From a virus: a DNA stretch of 20,718 nucleotides. The position numbers and the translations under genes were made by a program. This document shows, in pieces, positions 3,619-14,709 of this stretch. The stretch lies in the IMG/VR virus record IMGVR_UViG_3300005753_000065, positions 1-20,718 of that record; one strand, given 5' to 3'. Below the pieces are notes generated by a model. That model was given only the letters and a program-made list of their open reading frames with translations. It searched no databases and was not told the DNA's origin. The first letter of the stretch is position 1; every line of letters begins with the position of its first letter.

Positions 3619-4533
3619 ATGGCTAATCCATCAGGTTTGGTTACACAAGGTACAGAAGCACGTCTACTCCAAGAAGGTATCAATGCTATTGCTACGATAG
3701 AATACAAAGATAAAGAAATGGAGTACGACAAAATTTTCATCACGAAAAAGTCCGAAAAAGCTTACGAGCTTGACGTGTCGTTGTCACCATCAGGCTTAGC
3801 AAGTTTAAAGCCCGAAGGAACCGCGACAGCTTACGATGGTGAGAAACAAGACTTCACGACCACTTACACTCACGCCGTTTATTCATTAGGCACCATTATC
3901 ACAATGGAAGCTGCGATGAATAACTTGTATCGTGATTTAATCACCAAGGCCGGTAAAATACTTAAACGTTCATTGGTTCATACCGACGAACAATTAGCGG
4001 CTAACGTTATTAATAATGCTTACGATGCCAACTTTGCAATTGGTGACGGACTGCCCTTATTCTCAACGGCTCACTTGCTTGGTAAAGGTGGAACATTTTC
4101 TAATCGTTTCAGCGTTTTTACTCCGTTAAGTCAGGCAGCTGTTGAAGATGCGACTATTGCGGTCGAGGATTATCGTGACGGTGCCGGTCTGTTGATCGAT
4201 GCACGTGCAACCAGCTTGCATTTGCCGCGTCAATTACGTTACACAGCGGATCGAATCCTATCTTCTCGTTTCGAGCCAGGTTCAGCAAATAATGCAATCA
4301 ATCCCGTTGTCGATGTATTCCCAGGAGGCTACCACGTCAATCATCGATTCACGTCATCAACTGAGTGGCTTATTAAGACCGACATTGACGAAGGGTTTAA
4401 AATCTTTGATCGTATGGGTTATGTGTTTGATCAAGATAACGATTTTGGGACCAGTAATTATCGACATAAGGGTATGCTATACAAATCCTATGGGGTCACT
4501 GATCCTAGATGTTGTTACGGTTCCGGTCAGTAA
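3619..4533 (+). CDS. Major capsid (coat) protein, HK97 fold
   Basis: The 304-residue product has the layout of HK97-fold coat proteins of the gpT-like type. A helical N-terminal arm is followed by a strand segment (AYELDVSLSPSGLASLKPEG), then a long spine-helix region (MNNLYRDLITKAGKILKRSL). GLPLFSTAHLLGKGGTFSNR follows (from about residue 145), a signature of this coat subgroup. An A-domain contains LIDARATSLHLPRQLRYTADRIL, and the end carries DEGFKIFDRMGYVFDQDNDFGT...RHKGMLYKSYGVTDPR. It is shorter than P22 coat (430 residues), leaving no obvious room for the P22 insertion domain. The start at 3619 follows the upstream stop by one base, so the two genes are probably coupled. The role is fairly certain; the subgroup is from memory. 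Confidence 0.85.
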   Translation: MANPSGLVTQGTEARLLQEGINAIATIEYKDKEMEYDKIFITKKSEKAYELDVSLSPSGLASLKPEGTATAYDGEKQDFTTTYTHAVYSLGTIITMEAAMNNLYRDLITKAGKILKRSLVHTDEQLAANVINNAYDANFAIGDGLPLFSTAHLLGKGGTFSNRFSVFTPLSQAAVEDATIAVEDYRDGAGLLIDARATSLHLPRQLRYTADRILSSRFEPGSANNAINPVVDVFPGGYHVNHRFTSSTEWLIKTDIDEGFKIFDRMGYVFDQDNDFGTSNYRHKGMLYKSYGVTDPRCCYGSGQ

Positions 4534-4840: not shown

Positions 4841-5779
4841 ATGACTACAATTTCCAGTTATCCGAATGGTTTTACTGATGGCGTTACTATCCGTGGTATG
4901 CCGATCTTACAAACCTACTCAGGGGAAATATTTTACGTTAGCAATGCCGATATTTTGTTAAGTAAGGGTAATCGGGTTGCAGGTTTAGACCAGGCGAGCG
5001 GCGGCACATTCAGTAGACCTTTTAGAACAATTGATTTTGCTGTTGGCCAATGTACTGCTAATCGCGGCGATATTATCATTGTGTTGCCAGGCCATACAGA
5101 AGACATTGCCAGTTCAACGTCATTGGTTATTGATGTGGCTGGGGTTGCTATTGTTGGACTTGGTTCTGGCTCACTACAGCCAGAATTGAATTTTTCAACG
5201 ACATCTGGATCCATTGAAATGGATGCAGCAAATTGCGCTTTAGTCAATCTCAATATAAAAGCTGATCTTACAGCGGTAGTCGTCGGTGTTAATGTCGATG
5301 CGAATAACTGTACTATTCAGGGTTGCACGTTTGATTATGCGAATACTGGTGATGATTTTGTTACTATGATCGATATCGATAATGTTAACGGTGCGGCGGT
5401 AATCGATTGCAGATTGATTGCAGAAGACGCCGCCGGTTGTGCCGAGGCTATTCGATTAGACAATTGTGACAATGTCATCATAGAAAACAATCATATTTAT
5501 GGTGATTTCACAGATGGCGCTATTATCGGCGAAGGTGCATCAGGTGTAAATCTGACTATCAGAAATAATACCATTTATAATTCTGACACGACAGCAGGTT
5601 TTTTGGTTGATTTGAATGTTGCATTTACGGGGCTATTAATAGGAAATCGTATGGGAACATTATTTGCAACAGCACCAGAAACAGCGGTAGATCCAGGAAG
5701 TTTACTTTGCTTAGAAAATTATGTTGCTAATGCGGTCGACGAATCTGGAACAATAGTACCAATAACCTTATCAACATAA
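4841..5779 (+). CDS. Beta-helix virion protein, copy 1
   Basis: This encodes 312 residues. The first ~110 (MTTISSYPNG..., FYVSNADILL, SRPFRTIDFAVGQCTANRGD, VLPGHTEDI) are shared closely with the product of 5931-6905. The rest consists of short repeating strands rich in Asn, Ile, Val and Asp (NCTIQGCTFDY, NVIIENNHIYGD, NLTIRNNTIYNS), the signature of a right-handed parallel beta-helix such as pectate lyases and tail spikes. No catalytic Asp/Glu set is evident. It lies among structural genes behind the coat gene, so it is probably a head fibre or decoration, perhaps carbohydrate-binding. AAGGGG just upstream supports the ATG. The virion role is inferred. Confidence 0.65.
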   Translation: MTTISSYPNGFTDGVTIRGMPILQTYSGEIFYVSNADILLSKGNRVAGLDQASGGTFSRPFRTIDFAVGQCTANRGDIIIVLPGHTEDIASSTSLVIDVAGVAIVGLGSGSLQPELNFSTTSGSIEMDAANCALVNLNIKADLTAVVVGVNVDANNCTIQGCTFDYANTGDDFVTMIDIDNVNGAAVIDCRLIAEDAAGCAEAIRLDNCDNVIIENNHIYGDFTDGAIIGEGASGVNLTIRNNTIYNSDTTAGFLVDLNVAFTGLLIGNRMGTLFATAPETAVDPGSLLCLENYVANAVDESGTIVPITLST

Positions 5780-5788
5780 GAGTTTTAA

Positions 5789-5914
5789 ATGACGACTATT
5801 TCTAACTATCCATCTGGTATAAATAGAATAGGCAATCAAAGAACGGATGATATTGGGGCAGCAAAAACCTCAAACGACACGTCCGCTTCTGTAACAGTGT
5901 CAACTGATGCTTAA
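5789..5914 (+). pseudogene. Collapsed third copy of the beta-helix gene (41-codon minigene)
   Basis: The frame reads MTTISNYPSGIN, the start of both neighbouring beta-helix proteins. It then jumps directly to IGNQRTDDIGAAKTSNDTSA and on to a stop, which is the last ~28 residues of the 5931-6905 product. About 280 residues of the expected middle are absent and the frame is preserved. The 5' end differs from both neighbours at many third codon positions, so it is its own old copy; the 3' end is almost identical to that of the next gene. A weak AAGAG ribosome site precedes it. It may still be translated; I class it as a degenerate copy left by an internal deletion. Confidence 0.75.
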
Positions 5915-5920
5915 ATTGGA
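5828..5920 (+). repeat. 93-bp direct repeat, left copy
   Basis: This is 93 bases matching 6819-6911 with two differences (T/C at 5854/6845 and T/G at 5911/6902). Both are synonymous third codon positions. The repeat covers the coding end, the stop codon and the first bases of the intergenic spacer, and the two copies bracket the second beta-helix gene at an offset of 991 bases. Confidence 0.9.
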
Positions 5921-5930
5921 TATAAAATAA

Positions 5931-6905
5931 ATGACAACAATTTCAAATTATCCAAATGGAATCAATGGTTTGTTGCTTCGTGGTGTACCGACGATCATAC
6001 CGCATCCAGGTCAGAGTTTTTGGGTAAGCAATGCGGACGTTTTATTGAATAATGGGAATTCGGTAGTTGGGGTTGATCAAGCTGGCGGCGGGGAATACCA
6101 AAGACCCTTTAGAACAATCGATTTTGCAATAGGACAATGTACTGCCAATCGTGGTGACGTTATTTACGTCATGCCTGGTCATGTCGAGACGATAACTGCA
6201 TCAGGTGGACTCAATTTAGATGTTGCTGGAATTACCATTATTGGTTTAGGTAGAGGGACGTTACAACCAAGAATTGACTATACCGCTACATCTAGTTCTG
6301 TTCAGATCAACTCATCGAATGTTTCGATCTGTAATGTTAATTTCCATGCTAACGTTACAAGCGTTACGTTAGGAGTTGATATTGTAGCGTCATCATCAGA
6401 CACATTAATAAAAGGGTGTTATTTTGACGTTGAAACAACAGCAACGGACGAATTTTCTATTGTTATAGATATAAAGACTGGTTGCAACAGAACAATTGTA
6501 GAAGATAATATAATTGATATGGGCTTAGGTGGTAGCAATACTGGTGTTCGTTTATCGGCTGGTATTAGTACTGGTGTTGTCATAAAAAATAACAGAATAG
6601 TAGGTGATTATTCGGCGGGTTGTATTGCCACTACATTTTCGGGGATAACTGAATTGTACATCGAAGATAATCTGTTGATGCAAGGTGGCACAGGAAACCT
6701 AAATGCTGTAGCGGTAATCAACAATAATGCAAACACAACAGGCGTTGTGAGAAATAACGATATTGTTTGTGATGTCGCGACTTTTGCATTGCAAACAGTC
6801 GCAAATGGAATGACATTTATAGGCAATCAAAGAACGGATGATATCGGGGCAGCAAAAACCTCAAACGACACGTCCGCTTCTGTAACAGTGTCAACTGATG
6901 CGTAA
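5931..6905 (+). CDS. Beta-helix virion protein, copy 2
   Basis: The 324-residue product is a paralogue of that of 4841-5779. The N-terminal block is nearly the same (MTTISNYPNG, FWVSNADVLL, RPFRTIDFAIGQCTANRGD, VMPGHVETI), while the C-terminal two thirds have diverged but keep the beta-helix pattern (NVSICNVNFHANV, TIVEDNIIDMG, GVVIKNNRIVGDY, ELYIEDNLLMQG). It ends in a Thr/Ser/Asp-rich tail (SNDTSASVTVSTDA) that copy 1 lacks. The likely role is a capsid-surface or fibre protein with a conserved attachment end and a variable outer part. The ribosome site is weak (GGAT). The gene is bracketed by the 93-bp direct repeats. Confidence 0.65.
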   Translation: MTTISNYPNGINGLLLRGVPTIIPHPGQSFWVSNADVLLNNGNSVVGVDQAGGGEYQRPFRTIDFAIGQCTANRGDVIYVMPGHVETITASGGLNLDVAGITIIGLGRGTLQPRIDYTATSSSVQINSSNVSICNVNFHANVTSVTLGVDIVASSSDTLIKGCYFDVETTATDEFSIVIDIKTGCNRTIVEDNIIDMGLGGSNTGVRLSAGISTGVVIKNNRIVGDYSAGCIATTFSGITELYIEDNLLMQGGTGNLNAVAVINNNANTTGVVRNNDIVCDVATFALQTVANGMTFIGNQRTDDIGAAKTSNDTSASVTVSTDA

Positions 6906-6911
6906 ATTGGA
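6819..6911 (+). repeat. 93-bp direct repeat, right copy
   Basis: Partner of 5828-5920, forming the true 3' end of the second beta-helix gene plus its downstream spacer. Recombination between the copies would remove the whole intervening gene and leave the minigene intact. Confidence 0.9.
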
Positions 6912-6920
6912 GAATAAAAA

Positions 6921-7445
6921 ATGTCACAACAATGGTTTTTAGATCAAGCGAGATTGGGTAATGTATATCATTCTCACAATACGACCTCCGGAGCTGTTAC
7001 TGTTCTTAGTGCAACTTGTACAGGATTGGTTATTGAAAATCCATTCGGGTCAAATCAAGATTTAATCATAGAAAGTATGTCTTTTGTTGGGTCGACGCTT
7101 TCAACTATTCGAGAGATTGGTGTGGCGGTTAACGCGACTATCGATCAAACGGGCTCGACCACTACGACTGCAGCCGTCATTCATAACGGGCGAAACACTG
7201 GGAGTAATGCTGATGTAGGTGTAGCCCAGTCGTTTAGTATTGCAACATTGCCAGCAGCACCAGTATGGTTGCGCTCAATCGGTAATGCTCGGGTAACTGG
7301 TGCGGTAGAAGGTTTAACAGCTATCAAGGCAGAGTTTGATGGTACGTTGATTGTTCCGCCTGGCGGGTTTATCTGCTTTTCAACGCTCACAGCAGCGGCA
7401 ACCGGTTTATGTTCGGCAACATGGGCCGAAGCGGATATTCTGTAA
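6921..7445 (+). CDS. Small beta-rich virion protein
   Basis: This encodes 174 residues with almost no Lys, rich in Thr, Ala, Val and Ile, suggesting a beta-sandwich. Features are SNQDLIIESMSFVGSTLSTI in the middle and EFDGTLIVPPGGFICFSTLT near the end. The same layout (NLFIGDISIGAVETVLW, then RFDGSLILGPGDAIAVEY) occurs in the product of 12156-12704, so the two are probably distant paralogues. There is no enzyme motif or membrane segment. GGAG at 6909-6912 serves the ATG. Its place among head-surface and neck genes indicates a structural role; the exact site in the virion is unknown. Confidence 0.6.
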   Translation: MSQQWFLDQARLGNVYHSHNTTSGAVTVLSATCTGLVIENPFGSNQDLIIESMSFVGSTLSTIREIGVAVNATIDQTGSTTTTAAVIHNGRNTGSNADVGVAQSFSIATLPAAPVWLRSIGNARVTGAVEGLTAIKAEFDGTLIVPPGGFICFSTLTAAATGLCSATWAEADIL

Positions 7446-13696: not shown

Positions 13697-14168
13697 ATTT
13701 TTTGTGGTTGGATTGCCACGAAGTCGAACGTATTGGATGAGCATTTATTTATATTGTACGCATGAGGCATTTCATTATAATGAAAATTACAAAACATTTA
13801 TGGACAGCAAAAGCTTTGGAGATTCAACAACGTGCTACCCTTGGATTAAAAATTATATTACTGATAATCCTATTGTCGTTATAGAAAGAGATTTAGATGA
13901 ATGTTTTCAGTCATCGATAAAGTTATTTCCAGATATTAAAATAAAAACACTGGAACATATGCAATCAGAATTGGAAGGTATCGATGTTTGTTTACGTATA
14001 AAGTACGAAGATATCAACGAACGGTTACAAGAGATTTGGGAGTATTGCCACGAATCGCCGTTTAATAGCGTTAGAGCTGAAAAATTAAAAGATAATCACA
14101 TGGAAAACTATCCTTTAATTGAGGCAACGCAACAAGAGATTAAAAAATTGTATGCCGCAAACGCATAA
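13689..14168 (+). CDS. Sulfotransferase-like P-loop protein
   Basis: The 159-residue protein opens with FFVVGLPRSRTYWMSIYLYC (4-23). GLPRSRT fits the phosphate-binding loop of PAPS-dependent sulfotransferases (G.PRSGT). ERDLDECFQSSIKLFP (about 67-82) fits the second PAPS-binding region (R...D...S). It is shorter than usual (~250-300), so the acceptor-binding part is reduced and activity is uncertain; it might be a non-sulfating P-loop relative. Homologues are known in some phage structural clusters, but their target is not established. It overlaps genes on both sides and is paired with a hydroxylase-like gene, suggesting joint modification of a virion protein or a host surface molecule (inference). 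Confidence 0.6.
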   Translation: MRKFFVVGLPRSRTYWMSIYLYCTHEAFHYNENYKTFMDSKSFGDSTTCYPWIKNYITDNPIVVIERDLDECFQSSIKLFPDIKIKTLEHMQSELEGIDVCLRIKYEDINERLQEIWEYCHESPFNSVRAEKLKDNHMENYPLIEATQQEIKKLYAANA

Positions 14169-14709
14169 AAAACTTGATTTAGTTGTTGATACCAAGCCAC
14201 TAAAAAGAGCGCTTGCAACGCATAGCTATTTGTTTGACCAGTTTACGTTTAGAAAAGATGACCCCAGATCACCACATGTAGAAATGTCAGATATTATTTT
14301 CAGATATCGAGATATACGATTTTACAATGATGACAGAGATAAATTTAATGAAGAACACACGGCAGTTTGGTACGAGTCGGCACAAATAGTGCCATGTGTT
14401 AAAGATATCGTATTTCGTATCATGACTTATGTGCGTGGAGAACAGCTTGGTATGGTGTTGTGTACTAAACTTGGACCAGGTAAGAAAATTTACCCGCATA
14501 CGGATAGTGGGTGGCATGCTACTCATTATTCTAAATTTTACGTAGCGGTAAAGAACGAACCAGGCGCAGTATTCAGTTTTGTTGATGGCAGCATTGATCC
14601 AAATGAAGGGGAAATATTTATGTTTGATAACTCGCAATTGCATCAAGTAGATAATGATTCAACGGCTGAACGAATCGCGTTAATCGTTTGCATTAAAGGG
14701 GAATTCTAA
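14152..14709 (+). CDS. 2-oxoglutarate/Fe(II) dioxygenase, Asp/Asn hydroxylase-like
   Basis: This encodes 185 residues from ATG 14152, overlapping the previous gene by 17 bases; the in-frame start at 14119 would overlap far more. The double-stranded beta-helix signature is complete: iron ligands H116 and D118 in YPHTDSGWH, distal ligand H164 in SQLHQVDN, and R174 in ERIALIV placed to bind 2-oxoglutarate. KFYVAVKNEPGAVFSF and GEIFMFDN are the intervening strands, as in aspartyl/asparaginyl beta-hydroxylase-type enzymes. Such enzymes hydroxylate Asp, Asn, Pro or small molecules. Phage copies are common in aquatic viruses with unknown targets. The neighbouring sulfotransferase-like gene suggests a two-step modification, which is inference. 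Confidence 0.75.
   Translation: MPQTHKKLDLVVDTKPLKRALATHSYLFDQFTFRKDDPRSPHVEMSDIIFRYRDIRFYNDDRDKFNEEHTAVWYESAQIVPCVKDIVFRIMTYVRGEQLGMVLCTKLGPGKKIYPHTDSGWHATHYSKFYVAVKNEPGAVFSFVDGSIDPNEGEIFMFDNSQLHQVDNDSTAERIALIVCIKGEF

Follow-up and report, generated by a model that had tools for sequence, protein, structure and literature searches.

Downstream of the major capsid protein gene in a 20,718-nt virus record with phage structural genes, analysed here over its entire length (hereafter, the window), we identified a 41-codon open frame, or minigene, that we consider, with moderate confidence, to be a relic, namely what recombination has left, in frame, of a third beta-helix paralogue within a slot that is modular and unstable. 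The interval between the capsid gene and the structural gene that forms the right border of this slot contains, all on the plus strand, an HNH-like frame, the beta-helix paralogue A, the minigene and the beta-helix paralogue C (Table 1).

Table 1. Features of the capsid-side slot in the window (nt, nucleotides; positions are those of the window)
Feature	Positions	Strand	Remarks
Major capsid protein gene	3619-4533	+	left border of the slot; Pfam Phage_capsid_4 above cut-off
Collapsed HNH endonuclease remnant, 68 aa	4595-4795	+	ORF from GTG 4589, ATG 4595; PHROG 99 HNH match
Beta-helix paralogue A, full-length	4841-5779	+	Pfam Beta_helix E 9e-5, below cut-off; family alignment A2
Minigene, 41 codons	5789-5914	+	ATG 5789, TAA 5914; open frame MTTISNYPSGIN-R-IGNQRTDDIGAAKTSNDTSASVTVSTDA
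Minigene codons 1-12, N-terminal tag MTTISNYPSGIN	5789-5824	+	8/36 nt differ from C, 11/36 from A
Junction codon AGA (Arg), codon 13	5825-5827	+	matches neither gene C end
Minigene 3' part (codons 14-41, stop codon), gene C end copy	5828-5914	+	2/87 nt differ, both synonymous
Spacer between minigene and C	5915-5930	+	similar to the post-C spacer; repeat D1 stops here
Beta-helix paralogue C, full-length, 324 aa	5931-6905	+	60-62% identical to L004/L005
Gene C end	6819-6905	+	source or sister of the minigene 3' part
Spacer downstream of C, before the next gene	6906-6920	+	resembles the same-place spacer in L023
Next structural gene (MSQQWFLDQARLGN...)	6921-7445	+	right slot border; also the neighbour in L023, L039, L051, L107

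The minigene, in which the frame, the start and the stop are all intact, is a real, non-chance structure. When aligned to the C product, it covers residues 1-12 and 297-324, with 284 residues absent; thus, in a test for in-frame internal deletion, it presents both ends of a longer homologue, collinear, with the middle missing and the frame kept. The first-pass annotation of this DNA had described two joined gene ends with some 280 residues lacking, the 5' end diverged from both neighbours and the 3' end nearly identical to that of the next gene except for two synonymous differences, and the alignments bear out all of this. Codons 1-12 differ from gene C by six synonymous codons and one replacement (Asn to Ser), and the differences in the shared end (28 codons and the stop) are ATT/ATC and GCT/GCG; the two parts are unequally diverged from C (8/36 vs 2/87 nucleotides; Fisher p 0.0008). 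The similarity extends beyond the coding end, a detail absent from the first-pass annotation, in the form of a direct repeat of 103 nt (5828-5930 and 6819-6921; 94% identical) that spans the entire intergenic spacer as far as the next start codon and is too long and too alike to be accounted for by chance. These observations establish the minigene as a mosaic in which a diverged 5' end of greater age is followed by a young copy of the C end and the spacer. The beta-helix body is absent from the minigene, to which the family profile gave no match at E 1e-4. Gene A and the minigene share a reading frame, and readthrough from A was considered as well but was set aside because two TAA codons intervene.

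Both full-length paralogues are mosaics, too. Residues 1-85 of C are closest to A and to the protein of locus L023 (64%), and the body is 61-72% identical to those of L004 and L005; the body of A is closest to that of L014 (51-55% identical). The N-terminal 85 residues of A and C are related to each other, and the bodies are nearest to those of different phage groups. The parent of the minigene was probably a C-like gene because the 5' end contains 'GIN', as do C, L023 and L051, whereas A and most others have 'GF'. The post-C spacer resembles the one that precedes this downstream gene in L023, which makes the junction between C and the gene that starts at 6921 the most likely source of the copied piece.

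The slot probably gained extra beta-helix genes that combined the local N-terminal part with bodies related to those of other phages. Subsequently, a single recombination event with two template switches could have linked the old copy, at codon 12, to the C end, copied this end together with the spacer and then resumed at the start of C; alternatively, the end of the old copy would have been converted by C first, and the middle deleted afterwards. Chance could explain why the frame survived, or else the translation of so short a frame is harmless to that of the downstream gene C, and any product would probably be inconsequential. Counting against this history, the regions of the parent around the breakpoints are lost, so that no direct repeat or microhomology is demonstrable for the minigene itself. 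Simple tandem duplication of C with a later deletion was rejected because it would not yield a diverged 5' end. The earlier proposal of a collapsed older third paralogue with a homogenised end seems broadly right: it fits the mosaic and is close to our preferred reading, but a single template-switching event in which the C end and spacer were copied would explain the same facts without a separate homogenisation.

A capsid-protein scan confirmed 128 loci, and the best 80 of these (L021-L100) were taken as relatives of the window. In the 39 loci for which the slots were listed, the beta-helix gene, where present, is single, and no intact homologue of the minigene was found at the same place. Among 177 loci, a count from which repeats of the same contig were removed, with some near-identical contigs remaining, and which also includes 4 distant loci from bacterial genomes, the beta-helix family (A2 profile) is represented in 107, with one copy in 105 and two copies in L122 and the window. 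The pair in L122 (3983-4888 and 4881-5654) is the only other tandem beta-helix pair found, and neither of the profile matches spans the N-terminal motif region. Neither a full-length third copy, the lack of which weighs against our reading, nor another minigene was detected in the slots of the relatives or in the loci scanned. Among the ORFs with the N-terminal motif described below, 66 run for at least 120 residues and six shorter ones matched a loose pattern, the minigene being the only one of these six with the motif at the start and family sequence behind it; some near-identical contigs are included in these counts as well.

Searches farther afield were similarly unproductive. The exact DNA of the minigene 3' end had no matches in the other IMG/VR records scanned, near-identical records possibly lying outside the scan, and none were obtained with degenerate SNYPSGIN (serine as TCN only). 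Degenerate NQRTDD(I/V)G matched six stretches, of which two are the L004 and L005 contigs again under new identifiers, three belong to an unrelated family of 101-aa proteins and one (L104) has no matching ORF listed. GenBank phages yielded no matches in the DNA search and one distant record, MW202647, in the protein search; the bacterial genomes searched contributed the 4 distant loci. No description of the slot motif or the minigene was found in the literature at the level of titles and abstract openings. The first-pass annotation had named the lack of a third copy in relatives, along with confinement of the minigene to one assembly, as an outcome contrary to its reading, and, among the loci and records scanned, this is largely what we observe, with a single copy in nearly all loci, no other short version and no IMG/VR match.

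A second in-frame collapse, which is of the same form and favours the relic reading, was identified in the window about 1 kb upstream of the minigene. Compared to L042:5519-5986, the HNH remnant shows 75% identity at both ends and a jump from K21 to K121, that is, a loss of 100 codons including the HNH catalytic core, with the frame kept. In L042, the intact HNH homologue, which is cut by the contig end, occupies the corresponding position immediately after the capsid gene, and an 8-nt repeat, AAATGGCA (KWQ ... KWQ), is present at both breakpoints; hence, for this remnant, there is both an intact homologue in the same position and a direct repeat at the breakpoints. L043 has a full HNH gene in the slot that matches HNH_3, and no match to HNH_3 was found in the 68-aa frame of the window. 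A screen for further end-to-end collapsed frames, which covered 103 sources including the window and 4741 short ORFs, 41 of which passed the 3'-end filter, singled out the HNH remnant; most of the others look like homologues that are partial, on the reverse strand or naturally shorter. In this screen, the minigene was scored against L004 and L005 only and not against C, presumably because of a start-position filter, and the result therefore provides no independent confirmation of the minigene.

In PMC10448857, the endonuclease gene gp174 of ICP1 is described as carrying an in-frame 228-bp deletion produced by recombination between degenerate repeats, and endonuclease genes are said to lie near essential genes, with capsid genes present in 31% of the T5orf172 neighbourhoods. 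The HNH remnant is directly comparable to these collapsed homing-endonuclease alleles (gp174*) in both the in-frame internal deletion and the repeat recombination. Unlike gp174*, the minigene is a remnant of a structural gene, its deletion takes away a far greater share of the gene, and a breakpoint repeat is not demonstrable for it. Endonuclease activity could be linked to the turnover of the slot. If frames were random, both of the neighbouring collapses, HNH and minigene, would be in frame in one case out of nine, which is a mild hint at constraint and a point against a mere relic.

The AlphaFold2 model of C (44 sequences; mean pLDDT 81.2, pTM 0.82) contains strands from residue 29 to residue 303, and residues 1-16, 18-22 and 305-324 have pLDDT below 50. 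According to this model, what the minigene retains is the last predicted strand plus the two poorly ordered ends, the rest of the helix being missing altogether. A search of the PDB with the predicted fold returned nothing at E 0.001 or better, the weak matches (best E 1.7e-3) being pectate-lyase-like enzymes and tailspikes; one predicted viral protein matches the C model well (E 2.9e-13). The short N-terminal (F/Y)PNG-like motif that is typical of the capsid-side slot proteins appears in the minigene as NYPSG. The pattern [FYLM]P[NSGTAED]G, picked after the sequences had been seen, occurs within the first 22 residues in 19 of the 28 distinct slot genes vs 13 of 1592 other ORFs; the 28 remained from 38 entries given, the L043 HNH gene was excluded manually, and the near-identical L056 and L057 were both counted. 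Eight of the 19 (L036, L038, L040, L043, L044, L047, L056 and L057) show no match to the beta-helix profile. Judging from this distribution, the motif is possibly a capsid or virion attachment tag.

Because the minigene retains the front motif that is typical of the slot, a small, tag-only product is possible. Such a 41-residue protein would dock on the virion via the N-terminal tag and fill or regulate the sites that A and C would use. The prevalence of the motif among slot genes, in part outside the beta-helix profile, is compatible with this scenario, as are the intact frame, start and stop, the synonymous nature of both 3' changes and the predicted retention of mainly poorly ordered regions, such that no broken beta-helix remains. 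However, two synonymous changes and no replacement in 28 codons of a single genome have p of about 0.08 under no selection, the minigene is known from one genome only, and the docking role of the motif is putative. We consider a retained tag-only protein unlikely, and the earlier suggestion that the minigene is kept as a small product finds no positive support. The synonymous excess in codons 1-12 (p 0.003) probably reflects selection that acted before the collapse. Still less probable, in our estimate, is the more elaborate version in which the peptide kept from the collapsed copy would occupy a docking site and thereby set the ratio of the A and C beta-helix proteins on the particle, with the short motif of this group addressing unrelated proteins to the capsid.

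Similarly low credence is given to the minigene as a translational leader that would hand ribosomes to gene C, the ribosome-binding site of which (TTGGATAT) looks weaker than those of the relatives. The minigene stop is located 16 nt before the C start, and the spacer before C contains GGATA where the one after C has GGAGA; but such spacing is ordinary in phage operons, and the predicted RNA fold of the region is little better than those of shuffled sequences (z -1.0). No Rfam families were found in the window, promoter-like sites are as numerous as in shuffled sequences, and there are 7 terminator-like sites vs 1.7 expected.

The two copies of the approximately 100-nt repeat flank C, an arrangement in which recombination between them could delete or exchange this gene. 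Nevertheless, we find it very unlikely that the copied end is kept as an anchor for the exchange or restoration of cassettes, given that no exchange product or restored third gene was present in any relative examined and that tandem repeats in general allow this without being maintained for the purpose; the first-pass idea of an anchor for restoring a full gene is unsupported, as the searches turned up no phage whose third copy is full or restored. An assembly artefact of the metagenomic contig, which the single assembly and an adjoining repeat of about read length might bring to mind, is equally improbable because the minigene 5' end has a sequence of its own that differs from both A and C, and because there are defined sites at which the two repeat copies disagree; a collapsed repeat would produce neither of these.

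If the minigene is, as we favour, a relic of a third paralogue, it provides a snapshot of the turnover of the capsid-side slot, which would involve exchange of bodies, tandem copies, collapse of one of these and collapse of a neighbouring endonuclease. As a more general by-product, slot proteins whose bodies are dissimilar share a short N-terminal motif, from which an attachment tag for the capsid or virion is predicted. In modular phage fibres and spikes, a common N-terminal anchor is combined with exchanged bodies. The slot family resembles these proteins in the conserved N-terminal part, the swapped bodies and the predicted beta-helix, but differs in that it is encoded directly behind the capsid gene and has only weak PDB matches, its virion location being putative. 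The head fibre protein gp8.5 of phi29 is an appendage protein that is encoded directly after the major capsid gene. The slot family shares this place behind the major capsid gene with gp8.5, phi29 belonging to a different phage group. PMC13320782 concerns tailspikes rather than a capsid-side slot. Elsewhere in the window, an aspartyl/asparaginyl beta-hydroxylase domain (PF05118, E 1.8e-9) is encoded at 14119-14709, amid phage structural genes.
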